64,000 bases of DNA from Lineus longissimus. Taxonomy: Eukaryota > Nemertea > Pilidiophora > Heteronemertea > Lineidae. The notes beneath the pieces are model-generated. The model did not search any database. It was not told the origin of the DNA and saw only the letters and a list, made by a program, of their open reading frames with translations. Location: NCBI RefSeq assembly GCF_910592395.1, contig NC_088317.1, forward strand, positions 1,116,001-1,180,000, read 5' to 3'. Each line of letters starts with the position of its first letter. The stretch's first letter is position 1. The position numbers and the translations under genes were made by a program. Of this stretch, positions 19,929-64,000 are shown one piece after another.

Positions 19929-20215
19929 GTCACAACCAGACCGAATGGAGCCTTTCTATCTGTCCGAACGTCTTGCCAGCACATTGAGAAAGTTGAGACA
20001 GTCACCATCAGACAGAATGAAGCCTTCCTGCCACCACGGTGAGAGAGTTTAGACTGTCACAACCGGACCGAATGGAGCGTTTCTATCTGTCCGAACGTCT
20101 TGCCAGCACAGTGAGAAAGCTGATACAGTCACCATCAGACAGCATGAAGGCTTCCTGCCACCACGGTGAGAGAGTTTAGACTGTCACAACCAGACCGAAT
20201 GGAGAACGTCTGGCA
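19929..20215. repeat. 127-bp tandem repeat, about 2.3 copies
   Basis: The phrase GTCACAACCAGACCGAATGG recurs at 19929, 20056 (one mismatch) and 20183, a period of 127 bp. Each unit carries a TCTGTCCGAACGTCTTGCCA segment and a GTGAGAGAGTTTAGACTGTC segment. The last partial unit ends in an inverted AACGTCT/AGACGTT. No coding potential is supported. Confidence 0.85.
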
Positions 20216-21533: not shown

Positions 21534-21539
21534 TTTATT
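21534..21539 (-). other. Polyadenylation signal of the giant module gene
   Basis: TTTATT on + reads AATAAA on -, 92 nt beyond the stop codon at 21631-21633. This sets the 3' end of the - strand gene near 21.5 kb. Confidence 0.75.
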
Positions 21540-21630
21540 ATGTGAAAATGAAGAGGGAAACACATGTGAGCAGAAACAGGGAGTAGGCTTGGCTATCAGG
21601 GAGTAGCCACGACAGGCCAGTCACGTTCGT

Positions 21631-22055
21631 TTACTCCTCCTTCTCCTTTTTACTTTTCTCATCGGCCTTTTTGGCTTTCTTTTTTCCCTTTGCTTTCTTC
21701 TTGTCCTTTTTCTCTTTTTTACTTTTCTTGGCAGCCTTTTTCCCCTTTTTCCCTTTCTTTCCCTTTTTTGCAACTTTCTTTCCTTTCTTTTCCCCCTTCT
21801 TAGCCTTCTTTTTCCCTTTCTTGGCGACCTTCTTTCCTTTCTTTTTCCCCTTCTTAGCCTTCTTTTTCCCTTTCTTGGCGACCTTCTTTCCTTTCTTTTT
21901 TCCCTTCTTAGCCTTCTTTTTCCCTTTCTTTGCGACCTTCTTTCCTTTCTTTTTCCCCTTCTTGGCCTTCTTGGCCTTCTTTCCCTTCTTCATGGCTTTC
22001 TTTCCTTTCTTTGCAGCCCTTCCTTTTCCTTTCTTGGCGACGATGTCAGACGATG
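21631..22055 (-). CDS. Terminal exon: polylysine-like C-terminal tail
   Basis: The acceptor TTTTGCAG lies just right of 22055 and the reading opens S-S-D-I-V-A-K-K-G-K. The exon then runs almost entirely as Lys, Gly and Ala, with four copies of an 18-residue unit around VAKKGKKKAKKG, and ends KSKKEKEE and TAA at 21633-21631. The phase matches the upstream module exons. Such a polycation could bind acidic polymers or mineral, or be enzymatically crosslinked; that is inference. The length is 140 residues plus stop. Confidence 0.85.
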
Positions 22056-25000
22056 CTGCAAAATGAAAAAGGGGTATATGTTGAATATTTGATCTTCGAT
22101 GATATGGCGACAGACAAATGTATAAGATATGATGCTGTTACCGATGAGATATATGAGATATACGATATGATGCAACACCATGCCAAACTAGATATCCAAG
22201 CTGAGGGTTTACACAACTCATTATAACTAGCAACTAGCATAGAGGAATCTATGCACGTTAGCAAGTAAAGTCATAGATTTCTACAATCTAGTGTTACTGG
22301 GTCACAGGGGAGGGACTAGGCCGCGCCATTGCTGCATCTGGATTATTTAAAAACAGATGCAACCACTTACGTTGACAGCTCATGCCATCTTCTGCTGAGT
22401 AACCTTTGGGACAGTATATCTCTGAAAGAAGTCAACAGACTAAAACATGGTATCAAAACGATCTGAAAATAATGAACGGCTTCACTGGAGTATTCCATGA
22501 CTGATTGTTCCGGTGAGCTCCAAAGCTGGGAGCAGACAGAGGTAAGTGGGGACCGCAGCGGTGTTTAAAATCTTATATCAAAGTAAAAAGAACGCCTTTT
22601 AAAAAAAACTCTTTTTGATGGTGTGTCTGTTAATTGGGAAAAAGGTTCTGAACTTACTGATGCATCTTCCCTTGTGCACTTTGTATCCCTTTGGACATTT
22701 GTTCACTGAAAATATTAAATAAACAAAACTGGTTGATTTTGTAAGAGGAAATAACTGAACGCATGCAGGAACGGGGAATGAAAGACGGCAGAACATTATC
22801 GAACAACATTGAGGAACTGTCTATAAGAACCTCAGAGGCCGTTTTGTGTGTTCCATCAAGTAAGAATGTGCCTCAATTAGCTGAGTGTTACTTACAATAG
22901 CAGTTTCCTTTCTTGTACTTGTAACCATCAGGGCAGGTGAGACCTGAAGGAGAAGGATTGGTATTGTTTGACAGTACTCCCCGACAGCATACAGGATAAG
23001 CTGTTCTCCGTCGTGAGACAAGGTGTCCTGAGTATCAGCAACAAATGATGCAAAACCTTAAGTGTTGTTGTCAAAAAGATTAAATGCATGACCCAGTGAA
23101 TCATCTCAATGATAGCCTCATATTCTTCAGACAAACCATTGCTTCTGACAAGCATCGAAAATCGACGGCAACATCAACAACTACACGTTGAGTTCTGCCT
23201 GAAATACTACTTGTGAGAAATACTCACGGACACAGCGTCCCTTCTTGATCTTGTAGCCCTTTGGACATTTCTTTACTGGAAGGAAAAAGACATATAAAGT
23301 GAAATCATTTGTTACTGACGAGAAGTAATAGGACATAGCATTTCTTTGAAGGTCTGATTTAAAAGGTTGGACGTTGGTGCATCAAACATGCTCTCTCATG
23401 AATTTGTCAAATGAACGTTAAAAACAGGATGCTATAATTCAGTCAAGTTCTGAGAAATTGACACAAACACTTACAGACGCAGAGCATTTTCTTGTTCAGA
23501 GCATAACCCTTTGGACAGCTGACCTCTGTAATAAAAAAGATGGCAAAGTAGAGCATAATTCTGGCCATTCTCCAATAAGAACCAGCGTTAGTGACCAGGA
23601 CGAATTGAGGCAGATGACAGCTTTTGTCACCAGAACAGGACTATCCATCTGAGATTGAGAAAGCAGAAGAAGAAGAAGATCATAGATCGACCCACATATT
23701 CAAATGATCCTATGAAATGGCATTTTACATCTTTCTTAGATTCATAAATACCATTCACTGCAGTAACCTTCTCAGGAATGTGTTCTCATCGTTACAATGG
23801 AAATCCTCATCCACTGAGGCGTGTTCTCATTAGGCCTACTTACTGACGCAGTGGTCATCTTTCTTGATCCAGCCTTTGGGGCAGGACTTGGCTGAAATCG
23901 ATAAAGGATGAAATAGTGTAAGAAGATAACAAAGCATTCGTATTAAGACTCCAGTGTGCGTATACAAACTATTACACATGTGACTTGGTGATTGTGTCAC
24001 GAAATTTGTGATTTTATGACAATCTATCTTACCAAGTAACATGGTTACAACACTTCTGTGTGGAAATAGGCGTTGAGTAGGTTTTATATCACTGAATTGT
24101 CACTCCTAACCTCACAGGAATGGCGACTTACCGATGCACGTCTTCCCCTTCTTCACATATCCGTGAGGGCAGTGAGTTGCTGAAAATGTTATCGAGATCA
24201 GATTCTGTTTGATCTTGTCGATTCCGTCAGGAAATGAACGGGATGAATGAAAAGGATGTATCGTAGTGAAAAGACAAGATTGCGTTCTGAGAAAGAGGTG
24301 AAGAAGCAAACGTGGGTAGAGAAGGATGAATAAGAAGGTAACATGTATGGAAAAGGAAGAGTGAAAAGAGGTACGATACCGTACCAATTTAGATATACAT
24401 GTAGATCAGCGAAAGGAAGGAATAGTGTACTGAGAAACAGAAGTATACGACGCAGATGTTTATGGTGAAGGATGAGTAAAAAGAAGGGAACGTGTATGGA
24501 GAAGGATGTCACGTAACATTTAGACTACATGTATATAGCCTCAGCCTTTTGATCGATCAAAGAATATTTCAGATAAGTCATCGCGAATTCCTGCTGACTC
24601 TTTGTATGAGTTGGATAGGGCGAGCTGATGGTTTGAGAACTTTAGGTCCAGGTGACTCCTGCTGACTCTTTGTATGAGTTGGATAGGGCGAGCTGATGGT
24701 TTGAGAACTTTAGGTCCAGGTGACTGGCATGATACTTACGAACACATTTTCCTTTGACTTTCTTGAAGTTGGTGGGGCACTTGTGCACTGCAATCATAGA
24801 GCATTAAGTTCGCAGAAGTACATTTTCTTGAAACATCGTGACAGGGTGAAAGGTATTTACCAATTTACCAAAACCTACATGTTCCGTTCACGTTACCTAG
24901 CTTCTAAACATACCTTCTTAAAGCTTATTTGCTCTGGCCATGGTTGCATTAACTACAAACCTCTCTATCCAAGGCTTTGCGGAACAAAACCAACATATTC

Positions 25001-28000
25001 CATTTTTGATACTGTGCATTACCACCTGAACGTAAGGCATAAGTCAAAACCTCGCGGAGTTTTCTACCAGGGCGAGCACAAATTCGAACGAAGGTTAATC
25101 GATGCGGTTTTAAGTTATGCTTAACGGAACTGCTTGTAATACTTACGATGGCAGTGGCCGGACTTTGTCAGAACGTAACCCTTGGGGCATTCCACCTCTG
25201 AAATGAAGATAGTCATGTTTACAGAGGAAACCCCATATAAAACAGGTAGGTCATGTCTGGAGCCGTTTGAATGTGGCGATACGTACCGGGAACCACGTAC
25301 TGTGGCGTCGATCCGTTCATTTCGTATTTCATAGCTAAATACATACCGTTATCATGATAGTTAACATGATACTTGAATAATCTGACCTTGGGAAATGCAT
25401 TCTTTAAATTTGACCTAGACCTCAACAAATCTTGCTGACCTTGACCTGACCTTTACTTACTGTAGCATTTGTTGTCGTACTTCTTAAATCCAGGTGGACA
25501 TTTTTCAAGGATGCATTTGCCTTTTGTAAACTTGTAACCTGTGGGGCACTTGATCTCTGCAAGACAAATAACCATTCATATAGACTGCGTTGGGGAAGGT
25601 AGGGGAACAGAAGATTCATACATAGGCTTATAACCTCAGACCTGTCTTCTCTATAGCCACACATCTTAATCCATCATCGACCAATACATAGAGACGAGTT
25701 CTCAAAGGGAGACTTGATTCACTCCGCAGGGCCTATGTTGGAGCCAGAAAACCCAAGTGTAAGCAAGACAATGAACCCCTGCCGAAAGCAAGGCCAGAGT
25801 TCCCTGACTCTGTTGTGATTGTCAGAGGCACTTACTCAGGCATCTGTTTCCGTCCATCGTGGTTCCCTTGGGGCAGCTCTTCACTGAAAGGAAACGGGCA
25901 GACGCTACAGAGATACCCAGTCACAGAAATTGAGGTCGAATAAACTTTCACCTGATATGTTACCTCGAAGTGAAGAAGGATTCACCAAATATCTGTGGCA
26001 AAACACCAACTCTTTTGATATTTATCACAGACAGAATGAACCCCATCTCTAATCTTAGCACTTAGAGTACGATACGATGACAGACTTTCGTAATGAACCC
26101 CAGAACCCCGAGCTTCATAATTGAATCATCATGCTTTGTATTCTCCTCCTTAATTCGTATATCTACGACATCTGAACCAGATAGAGAAGACAAGTATACG
26201 TGTCATTATTTAGAGTTGGGACGTTTCTCAATGTGTTTATGTTCAAACCTGTTGTGAAGCCGATTTATTTAACGGTTAACAACTTACTTAAGCATTTGCC
26301 ATCCTTCAGTTGCGCATTCTTGGGGCACATGATCTCCTCTAAAAATTAATCGAGAGATTTGCCATTTGTAACATAGCACTTACAGTTTACACCCAAGACA
26401 TAATTTGTTTTTACTAACGCTCGAAATCAATAAATTGTTACAAATTCTGACCTGAAAGTCTCGTCTCTTTGATACCGTGTTACATTTTACGGTGATTGAA
26501 AATGTTCCAATCCTATCATTAACTCCCCCGTCCCCATCCCCCATACACTTGTCTGCAATGTGCCCATGATAATTATGTGAAACTAGAGGCAATTGACTTA
26601 CCATGGCATTTCTTCTTATCACATTTCTCTGAAGTATCAGAGGAGGGAATTATATACTAACCTAAATTACTCAAATCAACTTACAAATCACTTTATTGCA
26701 GTAAAGAGTAGTAATACGTGCCATTCCTGGCATCTTTGCACTGAGTGACCCCTGATGACCTCATGAGTTTCGTCATCAGGGTAAATTATTCAGTGCAGCA
26801 TAGGGCCATTACAAACGCCACATAGTAAACTAGCACGAAAATTCGGTAAAATTACTCAGTTCAACTTACTAACGCAAGTGTCGTCTTTCTTATCACTTCC
26901 AGACGGACATTTCTTCACTGCAAAATATAAAAGTTCGCATGTTTTCATTGTGTATGATAGTTATTGAGAATACAACCTTACTCGATACCACATGTGCTTT
27001 AATAGAATTCAACACATTTTATATCCTACCTTGGCAAGTCCCCTTCTTTTCCTTAAATCCTGGTCCGCACTGCACCTCTGAAAATTGTGTTGGGGATTTT
27101 AGAATTGAGATGAATGCGCCGCCGATCCCAAAACAAACCGGAAATGGGCTCTGTATTTATGTTATCCTCTGGCACAAAGCCAAATCTTAAGCTCGGAAGT
27201 CTATGATTTTCCCCAAAAAGCTAAAAGTACATGTAGACATGTATAGGGACAAGTCAATGTAGTTATCAATTGAACTGAGGTCATTCTAGAATTCCTTTAT
27301 TTTCCATTTGTATTGAGCCAAAGTAAAAAGCAGTACGATATTAAATTCACTTACTGGCACATTCATTTTTGTGCTTTGAGTATCCATTTGGACATTTATC
27401 AACTGAAAATAAAGAAACAAATGATATCATACCATTAAGATCATTCAACAATCACGAGATATAGTAGAGAGACCTATGTGACTGGCGACGGCTTAACGTC
27501 ACCATTTAGCCTATTTGTCAACTAGCTTACCATGAAACATGAGTTAACAGATGGGAACGTGTATGGAGAAAGATGTCTGCATTACATTTTTGGAAGTGAC
27601 TACTTGGCAAGCCCGGCTTACCAAACAGCGACTTTTTCTTGTCCTGAATGGAGAGCCGAACTCATTAATATTAAAGTAAAGTCTCCAGCTCGCCAAACAG
27701 GGTAGATTTTTTACCTGTTTGGCAAGCCCGGCTGGCCGAACAGGGTGGCTTTTTAGTGCTGTTTGGCAAGCGGCTCTCCAAACAGGACAAAAAAATATGC
27801 CTGTTCGGCGAGCGGCTTGCCAAATAGACCCGGCCTACATTTTTTGCACATGATTTATTTCTCGGACATCTCAATTCTGCAAAATAACACTGAGCATCGA
27901 TTGATGTTTTCCTTCATTTGATTTGATAGCACGTATTAAAGATGTTTATTGTACATTTAGCCAACCTTTGCACGAATCTTTGAAAGCATTGTAGTTTTCT

Positions 28001-55000: not shown

Positions 55001-58000
55001 TTTGGTTTACTTACTTTTATAGCATTTCCCAGCCGATCTCACATGACCTTTGGGACAACCTGTAAAAGTCATATCAGTATCAAGCAATTAGTTATTTGTT
55101 AAGACTTAGATGTCCATCAAAAATTGTTGACTCAATTCTGTTTGCGGGGATTTTCCTCTTTTGAGAAGAGTTCACGCTGACCATGAGGAATGTCAACTCG
55201 GATCCCTATGGTAAGTGGCGGGTTTTTTATGATAGCATCCTATTATGAGCATTCATTTTATCCTTTGCGTGAATATTGCTGTTCAGATATCACACTTCTT
55301 GATTCAAGCTGCAATCGACGAAACTGCAAATAAGTCATTAATGACACCTAATTAATGGCAATAAACAACAAATTAATACATGTTTTACCTGCTCCGAACA
55401 CGCACTTTGCGCCGACTCTCCTGAAACCCAATTTACACGGTTTCATAGTTCCATTGCCACCTGAAAGAAGAAGACCATACGTCGAATCGAACCTGCGATT
55501 TCCAAATGGTGTAGATAGAACTATGATAACTTTTTATTTCAAACACATTGATACAACTCCAGGCCTAACCTTCTTGTCTTAAGAATGACTGATAGTAGTT
55601 AGAGGGATAGTGTGATTGTGGCAGCCTCAAAACCGAGGTAAGGATCTGAACAGTGCCTCTTCGGAGGCAAGAGGCCAGAAACCAGTATGCCTATGAAGTC
55701 AGGATATCAAATCTTGCAGGAAAATATGAAGCATTTTAGTTCATCCACTCCGGAGAACCTGAGCAAAGAGTGTGTGTTGATTCGACGTATTGTCTACGAT
55801 CGTAGCCGGAACAAAGAAACTGTGTCCCGAGGGTTTCATGAGATTTGTAAAGAGAGAATATAGGCAAGACCAAAATATGTCCGATAATCATCTTGGATTA
55901 TTGGATGACAAGTAAGAGATCCACTGTATGATACATGATTCATTTGCATAGTACGATCCTGCGGCCGTTTCACCAGTGGACGCCATCGTGTTGTTTCGGG
56001 GGTTGGGGGATTTTCAAAGAAGAAGTGACTTATCATGCCTATATTCTTCTTTAAGTGTCATTCATGTTACTCAAATGTTCATATCAAATACATGACATCA
56101 AAATAAACAGGTACGAGGCTCGCCAATATATAATATCATACAACATGAGGCAAATGGAGATAAAAGACTAATAACAATGAATGTTAAGTTGGTATACGCG
56201 CCACATGTCTTCCTTAATGTAACAACTGGTATATTCTAATAGACTCCGACGATGATTGATTGTTTTAGTGCTATTGGTGGTTTGAAGAAGCTGCGGTCGT
56301 TGAGGGTCTCCCTCCCGATGCGGCAAGTCACTACTAGGGATTCAAAGCCAGATTCCATGTTGATTCAAACTTGATTCCATCAGGTCTGGAGACTCTGCGC
56401 TGCAGTATTCGAGATATTACGGAGCACTGTTACATGGTAGCAGAGCGTGGTGCCGGCGTATTTCTGCTACCATGTAACTGTGCCCGGTATCCCGATGCGG
56501 CAAGTCACTACTAGGGATTCAAAGCCAGATTCCATGTTGATTCAAACTCGATTCCATCAGGTGCCTGTGCCTGTGCCTGTGTGCCATCAAGTGTTTCAGA
56601 GCTGCACTCTTGAGAGTATTCGAGATATTACGGAGCACTGTTACATGGTAGCAGAGCGTGGTGCCGACGTATTTCTGCTACCATGTAACCGTGCCCGGTA
56701 TCATTATGACATAGGAACATCGGCATATAAGTTATTTAATGATACATGTACTCAGCAAGACTATGATGACAGAGTGGATCCCTGTTATGTAAGTGCTTCA
56801 TACTTTCCGCACAAGATTTGATGATCTACCATTTTACACACTGAATTTCGGCCATCGAAAGACGATCTGGTAAGTTTATATTAACTGAAGAAAGGTGGAT
56901 ACAAATATTTTCCTTGCGATTGTACACCAACATTTTGCCTCCGTTGACCTCCCCGTCAGTGAGCGACCCCCCCCCCCCCCCCTCCCGTGTACACTGACCG
57001 GTATCCTTACCCAACAGAATAGCCTTGACAGTCCACGGAACCTCAGCATCAAGTTGCTTGTGTGTTAATACCTTGTGGTACAATGCAATGTGCTTAAGGA
57101 ACTTCATATCAGCCTTCGGACTCAGTGCAAAGAAATACACTGCCGTTTTGTCCCTGAGGGCATACGTTGCTTCCAACTGGGCAGCACGTTTGCTCTTGGA
57201 GCGTCCACTCCCTACGATGAACAGAACCTTCCTCGCGTCTGGCCTGTGGCCAGTCCGGGGCCTGAACGCATTGTGGGTAGTAAAGTAGATTCCGTAGGCA
57301 AGGTTGGTGATGCCGCCAACATACTTCATAGTTCGGATTCTCTTCAGGCAGTCTTTCTTAGATTTACATGAGTTGAGCCAGGCCCAGGATGTTGCCTGGT
57401 GATGGTAGGTGATCAGAGAGACCCGGATGGAGTTCTTTCCGACCGGAAGCCGAGCAATGACGCTCTTTATGAATAATAAAGATTTCTGGAAGCGAAGTTT
57501 GCCCATGTGACTTGATGCATCGATGAGGAAGACTACATCAACCTTGAACTCTGAAAAGGTCACCTGGACATTAATGACCTTGACCCCGGATAATAGAATG
57601 ACAACAATCATTACAACACGAACCGTCAACATAGTGGGATGCTAAAGAAACAAGAATTCTGTCTGTAATTTAGTCTTCGTTGACCACGAGGATGGAAGAG
57701 GATGTGTTTTCAAAAACATTAAGTTAGTGTGTTTAGTCCTGGTAAAGATACAACAAACACTTTTGCACTTTTGCCTTGACCGATGACTTTTGACCTACTT
57801 ACTCGCCATGTCAATACATTTCTGGTCTCTCTTGATCATTCCGGGAGGACACGCTGGGAGAAATAAATGGAACATGGCCTTGTTTTTGAAAATCGTCATA
57901 TTTTGCCTCGTGTACCCATCTAAACGATCGCTTATGCCATATCAGGACTTACAGGAATATTTCTACCTGGATTTTCAGAGACTACTGGCATTTCCTTATG

Positions 58001-61000
58001 CACTTGTGGAAATCAAATATCAATAAAAACACGCTTATCCAAAACGTCGCTTATCAAAGTTTTGATAGTTCCAAGTCATTTTATGTAATAGAGTTTGATA
58101 TCATCCAAATAAAGACCTCGCATTGGCGCCAGGACGATGTTTTGGTTGCCTGAGATAAGATATCCGAAATTTGACCTACCTGGCATGCCTTTTTCCTTGT
58201 TTTTACACTCTCCATTCACAATAGTCTCTCCCTTCTTACATTTTGGTGCTTTTACACATTTGGCGTTCTTCACGACTTGTCCCTTCTTGCATTTTGGTGT
58301 CTTCACACATTTTCCATTCGCGTCCCTTACGAGTCCTTTCCCGCATATCTTCAAACACTTTTTCTTTTGGAACAACTCAAAACCCTTTCGGCATATTGGA
58401 ACACATTTCCCTAATTCATCATGCTTCCAACCTTTATCACACTTCTTTGGTTGAACGCATTTTCCCGTTTTCTCCAGCACTTGCCCCTTTTTGCATTTCG
58501 GTGCTTTCACACATTTCCCATTCTTTAAGAACTGTCCCTTCTTGCACTTAATTCCTGGTTGACATATGCCATTTGCGTCCCAGACAAATCCCTTATCACA
58601 TTTCTTCATACACTTCTTCTTATGGAACAAGGCAAATCCCTTCTTGCATATTGGTACACACTTCCCCGATTCATCATGCTGCCAGCCCTTTTCGCACTTT
58701 TTGGGTTTAATACATTTACCATGTGCATCCGCGATTTGTCCCTTCTTGCATTTTGGTGCTTTGACACATTTCCCCTTCTTCAAGACTTGTCCCTTCTTGC
58801 ATTTTGGTGCTTTTACACATTTGCCCTTCTTCAAGACCTGCCCCTTCTTGCATTTTGGTGCTTTAACACATTTCCCCTTCTTCAAGACTTGTCCCTTCTT
58901 GCATTTTGGTGCTTTTACACATTTGCCCTTCTTCAAGACCTGTCCCTTCTTGCATTTTGGTGCTTTAACACATTTCCCCTTCTTCAAGACTTGTCCCTTC
59001 TTGCATTTTGGTGCTTTAACACATTTCCCCTTCTTCAAGTCTTCTCCCTTCTTGCATTTTGGTGCTTTTACACATTTGCCCTTCTTCAAGACTTGTCCCT
59101 TCTTGCATTTTGGTCCTTTTACACATTTATCCTTCTTCAGGATTTGTTCTTTCTCGCATTTCATATTTGGTTCCACGCACTGTCCATTGAACAAAGTCTC
59201 TCCTTTCTTACACTTTACACATTTCCCGTTCAAGAGACCCTTCCCTCCCGTGCATTTGGACTTTACACATTTTCCCTTCACGAATTTATGCGTCCTACCA
59301 CAGTATTTGACACATTTCCCGTAGATCAGAACACAGTCTTTCTTGCATATTGGAACACACTTGCCCATAACGAAAGCCTCTTCTTTCTTGCATTTTGGTT
59401 TCTTCTTGCATTTCCCGTTGACCATAGTCTCGCCCTTCTTACACTTCTTCTCGCATTTCCCTTTGACCATGGTCTCGCCCTTCTTACACTTCTTCTCGCA
59501 TTTCCCTTTGACCATAGTCTCCCCTTTCTTACACTTCTTCTCGCATTTCCCTTTGACCATAGTCTCTCCCTTCTTACACTTTTTCTCGCATTTCCCTTTG
59601 ACCATAGTCTCTCCCTTCTTACACTTCTTCTCGCATTTCCCTTTGACCATAGTCTCTCCCTTCTTACACTTCTTCTCGCATTTCCCTTTGACCATAGTCT
59701 CTCCCTTCTTACACTTCTTCTTGCATTTCCCTTTGACCATAGTCTCTCCCTTCTTACACTTCTTCTCGCATTTCCCTTTGACCATAGTCTCTCCCTTCTT
59801 ACACTTCTTCTCGCATTTCCCTTTGACCATAGTCTCCCCCTTCTTACACTTCTTCTTGCATTTCCCTTTGACCATGGTCTCTCCCTTCTTACACTTCTTC
59901 TCGCATTTCCCTTTGACCATAGTCTCTCCCTTCTTACACTTCTTCTCGCATTTCCCTTTGACCATAGTCTCTCCCTTCTTACACTTCTTCTCGCATTTCC
60001 CTTTGACTATAGTCTCCCCTTTCTTACACTTCTTCTTGCATTTCCCTTTGACCATAGTCTCTCCCTTCTTACACTTCTTCTCGCATTTCCCTTTGACCAT
60101 AGTCTCCCCCTTCTTACACTTCTTCTTGCATTTCCCTTTGACCATAGTCTCTCCCTTCTTACACTTCTTCTCGCATTTCCCTTTGACCATAACCTCTCCC
60201 TTCTTACACTTCTTCTCGCATTTCCCTTTGACCATAGTCTCCCCTTTCTTACACTTCTTCTCGCATTTCCCTTTGACTATAGTCTCTCCCTTCTTACACT
60301 TCTTCTCGCATTTCCCTTTGACCATAGTCTCTCCCTTCTTACACTTCTTCTTGCATTTCCCTTTGACCATAACCTCTCCCTTCTTACACTTCTTCTCGCA
60401 TTTCCCTTTGACCATAGTCTCCCCTTTCTTACACTTCTTCTCGCATTTCCCTTTGACTATAGTCTCTCCCTTCTTACACTTCTTCTTGCATTTCCCTTTG
60501 ACCATGGTCTCTCCCTTCTTACACTTCTTCTCACATTTCCCTTTGACCATAGTCTCTCCCTTCTTACACTTCTTCTCGCATTTCCCTTTGACCATAGTCT
60601 CTCCCTTCTTACACTTCTTCTTGCATTTCCCTTTGACCATGGTCTCTCCCTTCTTACACTTCTTCTCACATTTCCCTTTGACCATAGTCTCTCCCTTCTT
60701 ACACTTCTTCTCGCATTTCCCTTTGACCATAGTCTCTCCCTTCTTACACTTCTTCTCGCATTTCCCTTTGACCATAGTCTCTCCCTTCTTACACTTCTTC
60801 TCGCATTTTCCTTTGACCATAGTCTCTCCCTTCTTACACTTCTTCTCGCATTTTCCTTCGACCATAACCTCTCCTTTTTTACACTTCTGTAGCTTCTCGG
60901 TCTCCTTCACACATTTACCCTCCTTATGTTTGTACCCAACTTTGCATTTCTTGACACACTTTGCCCCCTGAAGTTCGAACCCTGGCGTGCACTTCTTCTT

Positions 61001-64000
61001 TTTTATACAAGTTTTACCATCGAAGACCATTCCTTCTTTGCACGCTGATGGCACTGAAAAGAAGAAGCAGAACACTGTGAAGTCTGCGATTGCGATAGTC
61101 TTCACAAGATAAAACCATACAGTCACTCTATGGTTAAACGAAATGTAAGAACAGGAACACATTGGCCTTTCCTTTTTACGAACACATTCACACATTGATC
61201 AAATATGTCATCCTATTCAGAAGTTTCCATGGCTCAATGACTAGCTCAGTTGGGTTCTCCATCACCAAGACCAATGATAGTTTTATGCAAAAGTACAATG
61301 TAGTATCCATAAATGCTCTGACTGAAAGATGTTCGAGATGATAAAATCAGGCCCCTGTATCCCTCTACGGGCTGACAAAACCCTTCATTGCCCAAACACC
61401 CCCCACAGCCCCTACCTTTGGTGTGGAGAATGCCTTGAATGCACCACTGCTGACTGAATGCAATCTCCTCGATGGTCATGGCGATGTTATAGACCGCCAC
61501 GAGGGCGATGTTGCCTTTGAAGCTGTTTTCTTGCTTCTTCACTTGGCGGAAGCCAAAGAACAGATTCCCTGTGGAAAAGAACATTATAAGTTATTTCATG
61601 GAAGCTACTCGTTGTGCTGTGCAAAGATCAACCATGCCACATTTGTTCCAGTACCTGGTACTCATCCCTTGTGTTTTCTACTGCTTGATCGTCTTACATC
61701 TTCAGAATCTATGATTGAATTAACCAAAATGGTCGTAGCTCCATGAATTCTCTCTCACTGTCCCACAGGGCCCCATTGGGCGGCAGCGGAACTACTTCGA
61801 TCATGGGCGTGGTTGCATCATTCAGCAACATATTTAACGCAAATTCCCAAACCTACACAATTGCCTAGAGGCTGTTTAATACTGTCAAACTTATGAGAAG
61901 AGGCAGAACATAAGTGACCCCTCTGACATGGTCATCAACTGAATATCAACTCTCTCGACTATAGCATGTTTAAGGTAGCAGACAGAGTCAGCTTCATTAA
62001 CAACGTACCAGACGAATCTGTCTGGAACTTTCCAACCTTCTTCGACTTGAAGATGGCATCAATCCAAATCGAGGCTATTCCTGTCTCGCAGTTATACCTC
62101 GCCCCCACCCAGTGCCATTTCTTAGCAGAGGGTGCAAAGGTGTGGAACAGCACGTGTTGTTTCTCGCTCGCCGGGTTCGTGACGAGGTTGAAGTAGAGCT
62201 TCTTTTTATAAATCCAAAGATGGACTCCTGGTTTGTGATTACTTGTTTTCCCTTGCCACTCTATGATTGGACCGTCAACTACTGCGTCTTGCCAGATGTA
62301 GGCAAACATCGTAAATGACCCTTTGACCTTGGTATTGATATCCTTCTCAGAGATGCGGACGTACGATGCCTTTCCATCGAAGGCAAATGCGGTTTTATTG
62401 CCCTTGGTTGGCCCGGTAATAAGCTTGATCTTATTCGTAGTGACCTTGGACTTCAGTTCATAGTTTAAGAACCAAACGCCAACCTTTTCTTTCGTTGGTA
62501 TTTCTGTGAGAGAGAAAGAACAGCATTATCAACAGGGTGAAAACTGTATGATTCTCAGTCACGCGTTAATGTCAAGAGTCACAGGAGAGAAATAGACCAA
62601 TTCATGTTGCTCTTCAAGCTTATTGCGTTCCCGCTCAACACACGTTTGATCATTGACCTTGCCAAGGAAGTGACACTATCAGAACCGTTGCAGCATAATC
62701 CTCTATCTGACGAGTATAACTTACCTATCTTGACACATTTTCCCTTCTTGAGCATAGTTCCCTTCTGACAGACAATTTTATCATACTGATTGTATTTCTT
62801 GTCACCCTTCCTTGAAGGCTTCGCGCAGGTTCTCTTCTTGAGGATGCACTTGGTGTGAAGCTTATTGAGCCTGGTGTGCTGAACAGACTTGCATTCGTCC
62901 AATGTGTCACACTCATGCAGACACTCGTTCTTTTGAAGGTCGTTCTTGGTCTTGATGTCGTGGCCAGGGCAGTTTCCAACTCGGTGACGGTATTTGTATT
63001 TCACTGCAAGAAAGTCAAGGTAAGATACAGGAATCAACGTCGAAACGATTGTCGTAATCTCTGCAATGAGAAAACAACGAACTATCGTCCTGATGATTTG
63101 ATTTGCCCAAACAGAACCTAAAATGCATTAGCAACCCTGCGAAAATTGGGTGAGTCCGGTTACATGAAGTTTACACATTCGCAAAAGGTAGATTTTCCAC
63201 CACATTCGCGAATGAACATGGCGAGCAGTTGGTGGCTCAAAGACTATCCATCAGGCATCAGCAACAAAGAGTCCCTTGTAACCCTTACTGTGGCAATGCA
63301 AGCATCGTGGAGATCATTCGAATCCAGGACCACCATTGCCGTGCTACTTACATTTGATGTTCGTCCTGACACAATTCTTTCCTTTCTTCTTGTAGCCCTG
63401 CTTGCAGGAGATGGTTCCCTTTATCTTGACACACTTGCCGGCCTTTTTGGCGAAACCAGTTGGGCAGTTGTTGATGGCTAAAATAATACAATTGATGATG
63501 ATTTTAGATTTCACACTGCGATTTTCCAGGACTCACTCTCTGTGCCACAACTCACTGGCTCTCCCAAAGATACTCTTTAAGCCGGTTTCGCCGACAGAGA
63601 AGTTAGTTCAGAGCTGCAGGTAGTTTAAAGGTCATGCCTTGAACTCCTATCAGTTGGTCAAATGCGATGAGACACTACTAAGTATTCATCAAAAGCCAAT
63701 TCCTGTCAATGTTTTAGCTGTTTCACCAAAACCATGTAGCCTGCAATAAGGTTTGCACAGAAGACTATGGGGGTTTTCATTCTCTGACGCTTGACAATCG
63801 TCGTCCGGCACGCGATCCAAACGTGGAACTAGGCTTATGGTACCTGATTTCAATCACGTGTCTGATTCCGATGGTCGGTGTATGAATCCGTCTTAACAGA
63901 CTCACCTCCAATGATGGCGTTCACTCCCCATGGCACATACGATATGAGTTTCTTATAATCGATGATCTTGTGGTAAGACTTGCCAGACGACACCTTAGCA
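21631..64000 (-). CDS. Giant multi-domain lysine-rich secreted-type protein (VWA, FN2, LamG, two-Cys modules), 5' partial
   Basis: About 97 exons can be chained in frame on the - strand, from a partial VWA exon at the window edge to a polylysine tail with stop and AATAAA. Coding total is about 16 kb (about 5,300 aa). Every intron is phase 1, except one phase-2 intron inside a VWA domain and one decayed exon. Order 5' to 3': VWA; modules; PAN-like; LamG; giant module exon; VWA; modules; FN2 pair; modules; FN2 pair; VWA plus giant module exon; modules; VWA; VWA; modules; split VWA; modules; two Ala/Lys/Pro-rich cassettes; a Lys/Ala/Pro exon; about 35 single-module exons; Lys-rich tail. The recurring unit is C-P-x-G-[YF]-x(6-7)-C, roughly 170 copies. 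I do not recognise the protein. Domain types imply secretion and matrix or adhesive use; composition implies a strong positive charge. It could be two genes (see the ATG at 57632). Confidence 0.8.
22371..27402 (-). CDS. Sixteen module exons, mostly one two-Cys module each
   Basis: Exons (+ coordinates): 22371-22421, 22658-22705, 22896-22943, 23228-23275, 23475-23525, 23844-23891, 24132-24179, 24740-24787, 25147-25197, 25461-25556 (double), 25836-25883, 26288-26338, 26602-26628, 26870-26917, 27030-27077, 27355-27402. Each starts with two bases, ends with one base, and is flanked by AG and usually GTAAGT. Peptides include NKCPKGYKVHKGRCI, LTCPDGYKYKKGNCY, KKCPKGYKIKKGRCV and THCPHGYVKKGKTCI. 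Lengths are 48 or 51 nt, with one 96-nt double and one 27-nt microexon (KCDKKKCH). Most are too short to stand out as open frames; splice sites and the C-P-x-G motif identify them. Confidence 0.85.
24589..24725. repeat. 68-bp direct tandem duplication in an intron
   Basis: The segment starting TCCTGCTGACTCTTTGTATG at 24589 is repeated at once from 24657, essentially without change. The second copy ends just before the splice donor of the 24740-24787 exon. Confidence 0.9.
27596..27835. repeat. Cluster of inverted CTGTTTGGC/GCCAAACAG repeats (foldback-like element)
   Basis: Variants of TGTTTGGCAAGC and its complement (CTCGCCAAACAG, CTCTCCAAACAG) alternate several times in about 240 bp, giving many possible hairpins. 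The cluster stops where a damaged module exon begins. It looks like a foldback or MITE-type insertion or a locally amplified palindrome. Confidence 0.65.
27836..27884 (-). pseudogene. Damaged module exon beside the foldback repeat
   Basis: After a good acceptor (TTTTGCAG) the sequence reads L-R-C-P-R-N-K-S-C-A-K-N. The only nearby donor (AAT|GTAGGC) leaves the wrong phase, unlike every neighbouring exon. The foldback repeats begin exactly where the normal donor should be. The exon is probably skipped; reading through gives a frame into the repeats. Confidence 0.5.
27966..32688 (-). CDS. Nineteen module exons (two doubles, one short, one with a GC donor)
   Basis: Exons: 27966-28013, 28231-28278, 28450-28497, 28692-28739, 28868-28915, 29104-29151, 29423-29470, 29668-29715, 29823-29870, 30093-30140, 30321-30371, 30667-30714, 30937-30984, 31163-31210, 31423-31521 (double), 31668-31763 (double), 31949-31987 (short, TKCPLDKITACL), 32295-32342, 32632-32688. 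All are phase 1-1. Typical peptides are TRCPIGFKFHKGRCV, IRCPKGYTLQKMKCV, VSCPPGYKKIGKKCI and KTCPKGFEKADGSCI. Exon 32632-32688 (PKCPGGGMNVGKDRCM) ends ATGG|GCAAGT, a GC donor; 27966-28013 uses the weaker donor GTTGGC. Confidence 0.85.
32779..32930. repeat. 52-bp tandem repeat, three copies, carrying decoy splice donors
   Basis: TTACAATATAAGTCATGCCG starts at 32779, 32831 and 32883. Each copy ends with GGCCTTAC, which on the - strand is the donor GTAAGGCC. Only the last copy abuts a coding exon (32926-33090), so two spare donors sit in the following intron. Confidence 0.88.
32926..33090 (-). CDS. Linker exon, Pro/Thr/Lys-rich
   Basis: This phase 1 exon of 165 nt has no cysteine. It reads NGKRRIIDPTRKPKEKPTPK and continues with PTTKKPK and TPKPQPKE. 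It looks like an extended, possibly O-glycosylated hinge. Its acceptor is TTCTTTAAG and its donor is GTAAGG. Confidence 0.82.
33353..34464 (-). CDS. Four module exons plus one short linker exon
   Basis: Exons: 33353-33403 (NHCPPGYKPLSFLCVK), 33627-33686 (KHNCPGGHLDKKGKCI), 33853-33900 (KCPSGQHLLHNRCVN), 34076-34132 (KKCPPHFIRISHRCVRVK), 34426-34464 (EPIHPHKITKAH, no Cys). All keep phase 1. Confidence 0.82.
33514..33575. repeat. Inverted repeat, arms about 20 bp, loop about 22 bp
   Basis: CAAAGGAGGTTCCACGGTGG is followed 22 bp later by its complement CCATCGTGGAACCTCCTTTG, with one mismatch. It is intronic and may be a foldback element. Confidence 0.85.
34753..35286 (-). CDS. Lys/Ala/Pro repeat exon, histone-H1-like
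   Basis: This 534-nt exon has phase 1 ends (donor GTTTGT). It opens DIKKLVAKLQKIRHKHPNKH and then becomes a tandem series of KPKKAAS-KPKKADV and, later, AADKPKKAASKPKMA, without cysteine. The DNA repeats at about 60 bp with TTTGGTTTAGAAGCAGCTTT on the + strand. Composition resembles H1 C-terminal tails, but the context is the extracellular-type gene, so a flexible polycationic spacer is more likely. Confidence 0.85.
35465..36372 (-). CDS. Microexon and two long-linker module exons
   Basis: Exons: 35465-35488 (24 nt, KRGIHQD), 35895-35981 (KCAKGFQKDKEGNCVKSLRR with a basic lead) and 36232-36372 (KKKCKKGEKLIKGNCAKMMV, then a cysteine-free tail). All are phase 1. The 24-nt microexon is the least certain; its donor is GTAGCT. 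Confidence 0.68.
36943..37155 (-). CDS. Tandemly duplicated Ala/Lys/Pro exon pair with a 42-nt intron
   Basis: Exon 37054-37155 (KAAAKPAPKAAPKAAPK...PAKKA) and exon 36943-37011 (AKPAPKVAPQVVPAKAAPAK) are near copies. Both end GCGG|GTAAGAT. The 42 nt between them begin GTAAGA and end CTTCAG, but they are also open in frame (KIDWLLHPDGQSSG), so the interval may be retained. The sequence after the second donor matches the short intron, so exon and intron were duplicated together. Confidence 0.75.
37359..39073 (-). CDS. Cassette B: four module exons and an Ala/Lys/Pro exon
   Basis: Exons in + order: 37359-37406 (HACQPHFHKVSQLCK), 37585-37638 (HACPDKYEQKGHECIEK), 37916-37972 (KCDDGFHYVRTRDLCLSE), 38366-38419 (KCPPGYVPKAELCYRGK) and 38630-39073. 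The last is 444 nt: HECSPHFHKLSLRCKKK, then long APKPAAPKP-type sequence, ending SIYMTPLKAVVKKDHG at donor GTAGGT. It has no internal ATG near its start and is easily missed. The set parallels the cassette at 39234-40569. Confidence 0.85.
37692..37753 (-). other. tRNA-like relic (tRNA pseudogene or tRNA-derived repeat)
   Basis: On the - strand the order is CTCAGTTAGAACGCTGGACT, an anticodon-stem-like region with loop CTTTCGA (apparent anticodon TTC), then GGTCACGGGTTCGACTCTCC resembling a B box, then GTGAATCCA. The 5' acceptor strand and D arm are not preserved and the T arm is irregular. I call it a relic, not a working tRNA. Confidence 0.5.
39234..40569 (-). CDS. Cassette A: three module exons and an Ala/Lys/Pro exon
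   Basis: Exons: 39234-39287 (HSCPEKYDQKGHECVEK), 39440-39496 (KCDKGFHYVKSRDLCLSE), 39776-39829 (KCPPGYIPKAKLCYRGK) and 40018-40569. The last is 552 nt: EVDAKLIKNAKPVHLARQGP, a middle segment ITMSKKDLAEFLKWKKNI, then AAKKPAAKK and PEKAA repeats, ending KFSVYMSPMKAFVKKDHG. It is homologous position by position to the neighbouring cassette at 37359-39073. Confidence 0.87.
40758..43599 (-). CDS. Ten module or linker exons of variable length
   Basis: Exons: 40758-40817 (TARCQPGTKLDKASNMCLR), 40912-40959 (KCPNGEERRHGKCPS), 41196-41255 (KCPDGFKKGIHKCERIHHH), 41390-41458 (CTANQYWLEGKCVDRD), 41630-41680 (AKCPKGTHPSGGVCLK), 41997-42056 (VCPPGYAKSVATGQCLRNA), 42339-42407 (VICPAGKQNVKGKCVKSG), 42873-42944 (linker DVAPHIKGRKPKEVVKKP, no Cys), 43093-43272 (three modules, CPKGTERKKDVCVPKCPKGY...) and 43540-43599 (CQKGDRWDRKTMGCVS). 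All are phase 1-1 and flanked by AG and GT. Confidence 0.83.
44016..45127 (-). CDS. Split VWA domain (three exons, one phase-2 intron)
   Basis: Exon 45127-44845 encodes HIVLDLIVMLDPSDMTG through ...FIGGPGRTLS. Exon 44646-44339 encodes MMKALHVLVAGRTFYRKNV through ...LAVKQP. Exon 44057-44016 encodes the module GCMPGYYLWKRKCI. The first junction is phase 2, the only such junction in the locus; 283+308 nt restores frame. Metal-site motif is D-P-S-D-M, so the third ligand of DxSxS is missing. Its closest relative is the VWA at 46592-47269, where the same content sits in one exon. Confidence 0.87.
45440..46309 (-). CDS. Six-module exon and a single-module exon
   Basis: Exon 45718-45440 has six modules in a row, CPMGMKKIKGKC to CPQGRLELRSSC, spaced by two or three residues; its donor is GTTGGT. 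Exon 46309-46241 reads APICDKNETWDKKKQICIKG. Both are phase 1. The six-in-a-row arrangement is intermediate between single-module exons and the giant arrays. Confidence 0.85.
46592..47269 (-). CDS. Module + VWA + module exon
   Basis: This 678-nt exon encodes PECRPGKVKVAGKCIKKG, then a full VWA fold (ELDLLLVLDPSKAMG at strand 1, RAVLLFGGLKP later, SFVYYFAVG near the end) and finally KQPGCMPGYYLFKNIC. The metal-site motif is D-P-S-K-A, lacking the third Ser. It is the intron-poor paralogue of the split VWA downstream. Confidence 0.9.
47473..48075 (-). CDS. VWA domain exon
   Basis: This 603-nt phase 1 exon is a single VWA fold: KVDLVFLVETSSAMG, AIFSFDTKVVPLSWLNSH, PRIVVVLGSGRTQKP, and a closing helix YVHWMYHVVMKV. 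The metal site reads E-T-S-S-A, so both the first Asp and the last Ser differ from DxSxS. The WLNSH stretch parallels WFNSF and WLNSC in the VWAs at 49098-51392 and 57011-57550, which groups these three. Confidence 0.9.
48434..48964 (-). CDS. Three module exons (one double)
   Basis: Exons 48434-48502 (IIMCSKGKVLFGGKCTHIIM), 48621-48686 (EKCETGFMKKWNVCIPHQ) and 48860-48964 (ICPPGKVHHGKKCVKTS then TCPPGFLFVMNKCRLK). All are phase 1. Confidence 0.83.
49098..51392 (-). CDS. Giant exon: module, VWA, then about 30 tandem modules
   Basis: The exon is 2,295 nt (765 codons) with acceptor TATCCACAG and donor GTGAGT. It opens VCKVGTMWDGKKCIK, then a VWA fold (ADVLFLVDASKLVS, IALFGKKVKDLTWFNSF, HVIFVMSSGRINKP), then module arrays. 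These are about seven copies of a 21-residue unit with AAKKPK linkers, a three-module cassette ending in a DxxGKC module, about seven copies of a 17-residue unit with KAP linkers, a second cassette, and diverged modules ending in GKKKPAAL. It is Lys-rich throughout. The metal site D-A-S-K-L lacks the third Ser. Confidence 0.92.
49568..49926. repeat. 51-bp coding tandem repeat, about 7 copies
   Basis: On the - strand each unit encodes KCKKG[QE]VLKKGKCVKAP. On + it reads TTTTACACATTTGCCCTTCT with 51-bp spacing. Copies are nearly identical, which suggests recent expansion or gene conversion. Confidence 0.93.
50079..50505. repeat. 63-bp coding tandem repeat, about 7 copies
   Basis: Each unit encodes the same C-x10-C module with an AAKKPKK linker, 21 residues. 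On + the marker TTGGCTGCCTTAACACATTT recurs every 63 bp. Confidence 0.93.
51821..52268 (-). CDS. Two fibronectin type II domains (one exon each)
   Basis: Exon 52268-52104: CHLPFRFKSKLITTC, then KKPWCATTENFEKDKKWGFC. Exon 51982-51821: CIFPFRYKGSYHYRC, then VKTWCSTTANYDSDKKWGNC. Both show the FN2 pattern: C, then PF-[RK]-[FY], C, WC, KKWG-x-C, four cysteines in all. FN2 domains commonly bind collagen-like or polysaccharide ligands; the ligand here is unknown. Both exons are phase 1. Confidence 0.93.
52520..52576 (-). CDS. Module exon (CGPNAKKVENQC)
   Basis: This 57-nt phase 1 exon lies between CCTTCTTTTCAG and GTGAGT and encodes PCGPNAKKVENQCVPIYK. It is short and lacks the C-P-x-G-Y core, so it is easy to overlook, but phase, spacing and splice sites match its neighbours. 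Confidence 0.75.
52888..52935 (-). pseudogene. Decayed duplicate of the 55389-55460 module exon
   Basis: The - strand sequence TCAGGAGAGTCGGC-AAAGTGCGTGTT, followed by GCAG|GTAATAC, matches the exon at 55389-55460. Two bases are missing (GGCGCAAAG against GGCAAAG), further changes lie before it, and no acceptor is in place. It cannot contribute an in-frame module. Confidence 0.75.
52979..53032. repeat. Poly-A tract flanked by 13-bp direct repeats
   Basis: AATAGACGGTGTT occurs on both sides of a T-then-A-rich tract. This is the layout of a target-site duplication around a retroposed tail, though the insert is only a few tens of bases. Confidence 0.5.
53531..53822 (-). CDS. Module exon and 24-nt two-Cys microexon
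   Basis: Exon 53531-53584 encodes RCPKGTKRVNSACVKVS. Exon 53799-53822 encodes only KTCILCK yet has AG and GTGAGT flanks and the usual phase. The microexon is plausible but less certain. Confidence 0.68.
53974..54465 (-). CDS. Two further fibronectin type II domains
   Basis: Exon 54465-54298: QCEFPFIYQKQIYYSC, then APWCSLTKNYDKEKKWGYC. Exon 54129-53974: WCSFPFKFKGKLRYSC, then KTWCANTFDYDKDKKWQFC. Each has the four FN2 cysteines and the KKW core. Phase 1 ends as elsewhere. A repeat of GGTACCGGCTCTGAAAAATA just upstream of 54465 duplicates its acceptor. Confidence 0.93.
54793..55460 (-). CDS. Three module exons
   Basis: Exons 54793-54852 (GKCKAGQREFEGICVPVYD), 55015-55059 (CPKGHVRSAGKCYK) and 55389-55460 (CKLGFRRVGAKCVFGA with a GNGTMKP lead). 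All are phase 1. The last is the intact parent of the decayed copy near 52.9 kb. Confidence 0.82.
55461..57010. other. Long intron without visible exons
   Basis: At about 1.55 kb this is one of the longest introns in the locus. I see no module exon with splice sites on the - strand. It holds the 177/211-bp direct repeat described separately and a C-run at about 56970. Confidence 0.6.
56314..56701. repeat. Direct repeat (about 177 and 211 bp) with an internal 15-bp hairpin in each copy
   Basis: CCCGATGCGGCAAGTCACTA starts at 56314 and again at 56491. Each copy contains TTACATGGTAGCAGA and, 18 bp later, its exact complement TCTGCTACCATGTAA (56430-56477 and 56641-56688). The second copy also holds a GTGCCT microsatellite. 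Confidence 0.92.
57011..57550 (-). CDS. VWA domain exon (possible alternative N-terminal exon)
   Basis: The exon is 540 nt from acceptor CCTTTTCAG to donor GTAAGG: FKVDVVFLIDASSHMG, WAWLNSCKSKKDC, KVLFIVGSGRSKSK, VYFFALSPKADMK, VPWTVKAILLG. The metal site D-A-S-S-H lacks the third Ser. If not spliced at 57550, the frame stays open upstream to an ATG at 57632 with a hydrophobic run (VVMIVVILLSG) that could be a signal peptide. The exon-to-exon phase favours splicing from 57803. Confidence 0.88.
57803..57853 (-). CDS. Single module exon
   Basis: This 51-nt phase 1 exon encodes CPPGMIKRDQKCIDMA. It bridges the giant exon upstream and the VWA downstream, which argues that both belong to the same transcript. 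Confidence 0.82.
58179..61052 (-). CDS. Giant exon of about 60 two-Cys modules (958 codons)
   Basis: The exon is 2,874 nt between acceptor CTTTTCAG and donor GTAGGT. Order 5' to 3': three diverged modules (CKEGMVFDGKTC, CTPGFELQGAKC, CKVGYKHKEGKC); 33 copies of a 15-residue unit CKKGETMVKGKCEKK; six diverged modules; seven copies of the KAP-linked 17-residue unit; then two copies of the W-x-HD / FALFxKKKC / DANG cassette mixed with single modules. It ends C-K-N-K-E-K-G-M-P. There is no other domain and almost no aromatic or acidic residue in the array. Cysteines are spaced C-x10-C throughout, so disulphide pairing within each module is likely. Confidence 0.92.
58756..59115. repeat. 51-bp coding tandem repeat, 7 copies
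   Basis: This is the same unit as in the 49098-51392 exon (KCKKGQVLKKGKCVKAP), one copy with EDL in place of QVL. Sharing this unit shows that the two giant exons are paralogous. Confidence 0.92.
59400..60885. repeat. 45-bp coding tandem repeat, 33 copies
   Basis: On + the phrase CATTTCCCTTTGACCATAGT recurs every 45 bp across about 1.49 kb. On - each unit encodes CKKGETMVKGKCEKK. Variants (I for M, V for T, K for E) recur in blocks, for instance a CKKK unit followed by a TIV unit, which suggests multi-unit duplication. Confidence 0.96.
61416..62503 (-). CDS. LamG-type domain (two exons)
   Basis: Exon 62503-62009: TAFAFDGKASYVRISEKD, SFTMFAYIWQD, GVHLWIYKKKLYFNLV, KKWHWVGARYN, ASIWIDAIFKSKKVGKF. 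Exon 61568-61416: NLFFGFRQVKKQENSFKGNI, then ALVAVYNIAMTIEEI. The order of strands (F-D-G, W-H-W-V-G, I-W-I-D, F-K-G-N-I, V-Y-N) is that of a laminin-G / concanavalin-type jelly roll. The junction is phase 1 with donor GTACGT. Confidence 0.9.
62725..63003 (-). CDS. PAN/Apple-like domain plus one module
   Basis: The exon reads KYKYRHRVGNCPGHDIKTK, then ECLHECDTLDECKSVQHTRL, then TKCILKKRTC, and ends with the module VCQKGTMLKKGKCVKI. The C-x3-C-x6-C core and flanking Cys fit the PAN/Apple fold, a protein- or carbohydrate-binding domain. The assignment is by cysteine pattern only. Confidence 0.72.
63352..63477 (-). CDS. Double module exon
   Basis: This 126-nt phase 1 exon encodes NNCPTGFAKKAGKCVKIKG, then SCKQGYKKKGKNCVRTN. 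Confidence 0.83.
63906..64000 (-). CDS. C-terminal end of a VWA domain, cut by the window edge
   Basis: The sequence reads AKVSSGKSYHKIIDYKKLIS, then YVPWGVNAIIG, ending at G|GTGAGT. VPW-[TG]-V-[KN]-A-I matches the last helix of the VWA at 57011-57550. The gene therefore continues beyond the window. Confidence 0.72.

Follow-up and report, generated by a model that had tools for sequence, protein, structure and literature searches.

A giant module-chain gene of the nemertean Lineus longissimus and its predicted polycationic product, a possible matrix or glue protein

The locus described here raises the question of whether a long series of mostly short exons on one strand forms a single gene and, if so, what kind of protein it would encode. 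It lies on the minus strand of Lineus longissimus chromosome 10, in a stretch of 64,000 nucleotides (bases 1,116,001-1,180,000, hereafter the window), where a chain of exons enters at the high edge and ends at a stop at position 21631. A preliminary description had proposed one giant gene of about 97 exons that mixes some 170 two-cysteine modules with VWA, FN2, LamG, PAN-like and Lys/Ala/Pro-rich parts, and had pointed to the Pif/BMSP shell-matrix class.

Scanning for phase 1-1 exons that contain a C..G..C motif identified 61 on the minus strand versus 2 on the opposite one. A spliced-exon decoder that favoured no phase produced 93 exons on the minus strand, 90 of them phase 1-1; on the plus strand, this region yielded nine weak exons, none phase 1-1. 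When a bonus was given for the motif, the minus strand from 22100 to 73000 (window numbers continued past the edge) was decoded as 110 exons, 108 of them phase 1-1, with a score of 3592. The controls were the plus strand (2 exons, score 13), the minus strand at 1-21500 (4 exons, score 4) and the minus strand at 75000-123000 (11 exons, score 46). These scores are biased toward the giant gene because the coding table was trained on that gene; Pfam domain matches served as the independent check on the decoder.

In the core model, two exons that the decoder had split (51392-49098 and 47269-46592) were rejoined and seven weak exons were excluded. The result is 103 exons, 18,930 nt and 6,309 amino acids, with 67 exons of 42-90 nt. 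Of its 102 introns, 101 are phase 1; 101 are GT-AG and one is GC-AG. Ninety-one core exons, or 97 with the weak ones, are wholly inside the window, in agreement with the exon count first proposed. The in-frame joins (no stop codon in any join of the core model) and the terminal stop with an AATAAA at 21534 were also borne out. The preliminary description had the gene cover the window from its edge. The chain does reach the edge, but the real 5' end is about 10 kb beyond 64000, where the translation start was placed on the basis of a typical signal sequence. The observed giant module-chain gene is confirmed as real, and its features are collected in Table 1.

The duplicated four-exon block (39829-38630 versus 38419-37359) has a dN/dS of 0.127. 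Array units compared with their own consensus gave 0.137, 0.098 and 0.00, and pairwise comparisons ranged from 0.058 to 0.264, the highest value coming from one set of 51-bp units. The samples are small, yet every value points to a maintained protein. The seven weak exons, one of which, judged by eye, looks like a degraded version of the exon at 55460, could suggest that several neighbouring genes or decayed copies were merged by exon chaining. Such a merger is improbable given the sole signal peptide at the 5' end with none seen internally, the phase 1 position of all but one of the 102 introns, the absence of stops in the joins and a dN/dS of about 0.13 in the duplicated block.

Several other features were observed around the gene. 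Past its 3' end, on the other strand, an eIF2A-like gene lies at 15595-18965 (+; Pfam eIF2A, 67 bits, one exon) and an exon of the TSC22 family at 6410-6640 (+; Pfam, 88.5 bits). A 127-bp tandem repeat (2.2 copies at 94%) is found at 19929-20204, and an exact 68-bp direct duplication lies within an intron at 24589-24725. Upstream, an open stretch at 82390-82757 (continued numbers) presumably belongs to a THAP zinc-finger protein.

Table 1. Features of the giant gene, 5' to 3'; coordinates above 64000 continue the window numbering upstream.
Feature	Position	Strand	Basis
Signal-peptide exon with start codon	73906-73828	-	exon decoding
PAN-like exon, upstream of window	72379-72128	-	
FN2 exon, upstream of window	66447-66229	-	
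FN2 exon, upstream of window	66089-65919	-	
Also upstream of window: module exons, one Gly/Ser-rich exon, one Lys/Glu-rich exon		-	
VWA domain 1 (whole exon 64460-63906), in-window part	63906..64000	-	decoding; Pfam VWA 78.2 bits
Exon with two 2-Cys modules	63352..63477	-	motif scan, decoding
PAN-like domain and one module	62725..63003	-	PAN_4 18.3 bits, below cut-off 27
LamG (Laminin_G_3), first exon	62009..62503	-	joined pair 35.3 bits, cut-off 27.6
LamG, second exon	61416..61568	-	decoding, Pfam
Array exon, 60 modules, 45-bp and 51-bp tandem units, Lys-rich	58180..61053	-	
Single-module exon	57803..57853	-	decoding
VWA domain 2	56999..57550	-	Pfam 98.7 bits
Three single-module exons (55460-55389, 55059-55015, 54852-54793)	54793..55460	-	decoding
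Fibronectin type II domain 3	54298..54465	-	Pfam fn2
Fibronectin type II domain 4	53974..54129	-	Pfam fn2
Single-module exons 53584-53531 and 52576-52520, plus weak non-core exon	52520..53584	-	
Fibronectin type II domain 5	52104..52268	-	Pfam fn2
Fibronectin type II domain 6	51821..51982	-	Pfam fn2
VWA domain 3, then array; 32 modules in exon, 51-bp and 63-bp units	49098..51392	-	Pfam VWA 89.4 bits, TIL 56.8 bits
Three module exons	48434..48964	-	decoding
VWA domain 4	47473..48075	-	Pfam; structure model
Module, VWA domain 5, module	46592..47269	-	Pfam VWA 34.6 bits
Single-module exon	46241..46309	-	decoding
Six-module exon	45440..45718	-	module count; structure model
VWA domain 6, first exon; phase-2 intron next	44845..45127	-	decoding, Pfam
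VWA domain 6, second exon	44339..44646	-	decoding, Pfam
Eleven core exons: 10 with modules, 1 short Lys/Pro-rich	40758..44057	-	
Lys/Ala/Pro-rich exon	40018..40569	-	decoding
Duplicated block, copy A: three module exons	39234..39829	-	
Module and Lys/Ala/Pro-rich exon, end of copy A	38630..39073	-	
Duplicated block, copy B: four module exons	37359..38419	-	
Two Lys/Ala/Pro-rich exons	36943..37155	-	decoding
Two module exons	35895..36372	-	decoding
Lys/Ala/Pro-rich exon, 42/63-bp tandem units	34753..35286	-	
Four single-module exons	33353..34132	-	decoding
Lys/Pro/Thr-rich exon	32926..33090	-	decoding
Chain of 34 core exons	22371..32688	-	28 of 34 exons are 48 or 51 nt
Terminal exon, Lys/Gly/Ala tail and stop	21631..22055	-	
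AATAAA signal	21534..21539	-	

One main component of the protein is the two-Cys module. A loose pattern matched 202 times in the whole protein and a strict one 193 times; the corresponding counts inside the window, 180 and 172, uphold the figure of about 170 given earlier. Since a few matches come from cysteine pairs within FN2 or PAN-like parts, the module total is put at about 190. The form C-x2-G-x7-C occurs 141 times, versus a mean of 2.7 and a maximum of 8 in the shuffled protein. The two array exons, with tandem units of 45, 51 and 63 bp, account for 92 of the roughly 200 pattern matches, and 63 of the 67 short exons carry exactly one module. In the 34-exon chain near the 3' end, 30 exons have one module by pattern, three have two and one has an off-pattern Cys pair.

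An AlphaFold2 model of the six-module piece (mean pLDDT = 77.6, pTM = 0.40) has hairpin strand pairs in five modules and no pair in the sixth, and a structural search with this model that included the PDB gave no significant match. Above their Pfam cut-offs, some module chains matched TIL in the array of exon 51392-49098 (cut-off 24.5; score in Table 1), C_tripleX (24.4 bits, cut-off 22.9) and DUF5874 (33.5 bits, cut-off 27.1). The cEGF profile, with a cut-off of 26.6, matched the N-terminal module chain at 30.6 bits and fell under the cut-off on the C-terminal chain at 22.4 bits.

An EGF domain has six cysteines paired 1-3, 2-4 and 5-6. The module of the giant gene has two cysteines and so lacks the six-Cys layout; it fits the C-x2-G-[YF]...C hairpin of calcium-binding EGF tails, which is the C5-C6 hairpin. 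We interpret the module as the last EGF hairpin standing alone, with TIL or EB as possible other parents in view of their matches. The EB match comes from a second locus of the genome, C17:7925448-7938780, a putative single gene as chained by the decoder. Here at least six calcium-binding EGF domains adjoin 12 counted two-Cys modules that match EB (31.9 bits, cut-off 24.3), and a Thr/Pro-rich stretch is also present. When the EGF tails of this locus were scored as modules, all seven were above the mean of their own shuffles, and 10 of 2,100 shuffles reached the observed score. The locus is a possible intermediate in the origin of the module.

Other parts of the protein are adhesion-type domains. 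Six VWA, six fn2 and one Laminin_G_3 domain are above the Pfam cut-off in the core model and two PAN-like stretches are sub-threshold. Every part listed in the preliminary description was recovered as part of one giant modular gene, the PAN-like parts below the Pfam cut-off. Before the second in-window FN2 pair, the weak exon 52887-52916 resembles exon 55389-55460 by eye and is perhaps a decayed module exon.

The metal-dependent adhesion site of VWA domains is a DxSxS motif that the fold itself does not need. In an alignment of the VWAs, the second Ser is absent in all six. The model of VWA domain 4 (mean pLDDT = 82.9, pTM = 0.85) superimposes on 4igi with a TM-score of 0.84, and the VWA fold is confirmed by Pfam and the model together. 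Its nearest folds are domains of collagen VI, VWF and integrins; among the matches listed, N5 of collagen VI alpha 3 is the closest and PTMP1 of the mussel byssus is also present. By sequence, VWA domain 3 matches collagen VI alpha 3 and PTMP1, so that both proteins share a VWA with the Lineus gene, domain 3 by sequence and domain 4 by fold. To our knowledge, neither has such module arrays or cationic tails.

Elsewhere in the genome, the VWAs nearest to those of the giant gene are at C10:17.77 Mb (30-32% identity). This locus (C10:17764000-17782300) has a signal-like start, several VWAs, two-Cys modules, VWD and a TIL match below the cut-off, and may be a distant paralog whose set of domains is nearer to that of the flatworm protein ap1. 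At C7:5692693-5714273, there are 12 near-identical VWA places about 1.9 kb apart, with one TAG inside each matched stretch.

The several VWAs (six above the cut-off) and the laminin G domain are what recall the Pif/BMSP shell-matrix family, and VWA proteins with chitin-binding domains are said to occur in nemerteans in the available part of PMC11291548. The same text includes a chitin-binding domain in the family layout and, as far as it extends, does not mention two-Cys arrays. No CBM_14 match was found at an E-value of up to 0.1 or 1 in any core exon longer than 40 codons; the scan took in all of these and about half of the short exons, which individually could not hold the domain. With no chitin-binding match, membership is unsupported, and a nemertean has no shell. 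The shell-matrix lead was accordingly given up, a place for the giant gene in this family being very improbable.

The predicted protein has a mass of 698 kDa and a pI of 10.0, with 1,508 Lys (23.9%), 435 Cys (6.9%) and a net charge (K+R-D-E) of +1,238. Its ten most hydrophobic 19-residue windows are all in the signal sequence, and a hydropathy analysis of the whole predicted protein identified no comparable segment elsewhere. From the signal peptide, assigned by inspection, and the hydropathy, the protein is predicted to be secreted, and it is probably structural or adhesive. The RGD motif is absent.

A protein database query with Lineus residues 480-1430 returned a single unnamed module chain of this type (P0001, source ena). 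Used as a query in turn, P0001 returned nine proteins: two Cryptosporidium oocyst wall protein 2 (COWP) entries, one hypothetical Cryptosporidium protein, five unnamed chains and P0008, a 'VWFA domain-containing protein' of the flatworm Macrostomum lignano (UniRef A0A1I8GCQ9). The last of these is the closest named relative found, with 34% identity to the Lineus N-terminal module chain over 333 columns (139 bits). Like the Lineus protein, P0008 joins a two-Cys module chain (10-residue loop in 18 of the 18 counted) to a VWA, is strongly basic (R 19.3%, K 8.7%) and has, by eye, a signal-like stretch near its start. It differs in its length of 1,023 aa in the record, in its preference for Arg over Lys and in its VWA, which belongs to the VWA_4 type and by eye carries a DxTxS motif; a domain scan for FN2, LamG and PAN in P0008 gave no match.

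The Cryptosporidium protein P0006 shares 27% identity (67 bits) with the Lineus N-terminal chain and has a C..G..C chain with a 10-residue loop in 22 of 39 cases. In contrast to the Lineus protein, it is about neutral (K 9.1%, net charge -8), belongs to a protist cyst wall and had no VWA match in the domain scan. The consulted part of PMC4514997 describes COWP type I and II repeats of six Cys each, and coccidian wall-forming Cys-rich proteins that are assumed to be locked by disulfides. The likeness of COWP to the Lineus modules may be convergent. Since Cys-patterned and compositionally biased sequence inflates alignment scores, common descent of the modules is not established.

The preliminary description knew of no named protein with this combination. 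This holds for the full layout, which was unmatched in the databases and literature searched, but not for a module chain joined to a VWA, which occurs in P0008. Among the matches listed, mostly open literature and including papers on nemertean toxins and mucus, there was no description of the Lineus giant protein. The kind of protein is a known one, a secreted modular adhesion or matrix protein; its mixture of parts, its charge and its hairpin bricks set it apart within that kind.

As an analogy, the flatworm adhesion proteins offer the best working comparison. According to the accessible text of PMC6410801, Mlig-ap1 has 5,407 aa with very basic Lys/Arg-rich ends and a vWD/C8/TIL/EGF middle; it is required for adhesion as judged by RNAi, and heparin inhibits attachment. 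Tmed-ap2 has 7,228 aa and 22.5% Lys in what was available of PMC9229212. Compared by these descriptions (PMC6410801, PMC9229212), Mlig-ap1/ap2 and Tmed-ap1/2/3 resemble the Lineus protein in being large or giant, secreted, Lys- and Cys-rich and repetitive. The domains reported for them in the same partial texts are vWD, C8, TIL, TSP1, cbEGF, vWC and C-type lectin, not VWA, FN2 or LamG. A Pfam scan of giant-gene exons for VWD, C8, C-type lectin and EGF_CA found none of these, and TIL matched.

On the precedents of the flatworm glues and the presumably disulfide-locked coccidian walls, we therefore propose that this single gene encodes a secreted polycation of about 0.7 MDa, stiffened by disulfides, that coheres with anionic polysaccharide and collagen as a matrix or glue protein. 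The probability of this reading is put at roughly 0.55. The VWA relatives in load-bearing proteins (collagen VI alpha 3 and PTMP1) support it. It is weakened by the different domains of the flatworm proteins in the texts consulted, by FN2 and LamG being equally usual in body matrix and in secretions, by the module model with its low pTM, unpaired sixth module and lack of a significant PDB match, and by the pairwise dN/dS of 0.264 in one 51-bp set.

The FN2, VWA and LamG domains above the Pfam cut-off, and the closeness in fold of VWA domain 4 to N5 of collagen VI alpha 3, would also suit an unreleased body-wall matrix protein (dermis, basement layer or rhynchocoel wall), bound to collagen through FN2 and VWA and providing strength or stretch for a very long soft body. 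We regard this as a distinctly less probable alternative because the extreme Lys content, the cationic tails and the amplification of the arrays bring the protein nearer to the flatworm glues, as far as PMC6410801 and PMC9229212 describe them in the parts seen. The absence of RGD also speaks against it, a weak point given the many matrix proteins that lack the motif.

As a cohesive matrix or glue protein, the product may work as follows. The predicted signal peptide would export it from the cell. Each two-Cys module is predicted to form a small beta-hairpin, resembling the last hairpin of EGF and presumably closed by its own disulfide, and about 190 of these in a chain would make a tough, lysine-studded string. 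The Lys load (about +1,240) and the Lys/Ala/Pro tails could then bind anionic polysaccharide, for example acidic mucus or glycosaminoglycan. From general knowledge of the families, FN2 would anchor the string to collagen; the VWAs, with part of the metal-site motif missing, may make metal-independent protein contacts; and LamG and the PAN-like parts may add glycan or protein contacts. A gland secretion, either mucus or adhesive, would be the likeliest site, with dermal matrix next.

A wider and tentative reading concerns the origin of the module. The last hairpin of the EGF domain may have been freed as a one-disulfide brick and, in spiralian worms (nemertean and flatworm), chained in large numbers, enriched in Lys or Arg and combined with VWA, giving rise to a family, as yet without a name, of polycationic proteins that serve as glue or matrix. 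Multiplication would have taken two routes, as tandem units within array exons and as single bricks on short phase-1 exons (63). Since the latter could be skipped without a break of frame, chain length could be tuned by splicing. On this reading, the similar neutral bricks of apicomplexan cyst walls would have been taken up in parallel or would reflect a very ancient use of the brick.

If true, these readings would place an extremely positive secreted protein (about +1,240, a value taken by itself rather than ranked among other proteins) in a phylum for which there seems to be little work on mucus and matrix proteins, and would open up to glue research another phylum of worms besides the flatworms. 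The brick of about 15 residues would be a ready-made repeat for materials work. The gene would also be a clear case of part of an EGF domain escaping and then multiplying, both within exons and as single exons.
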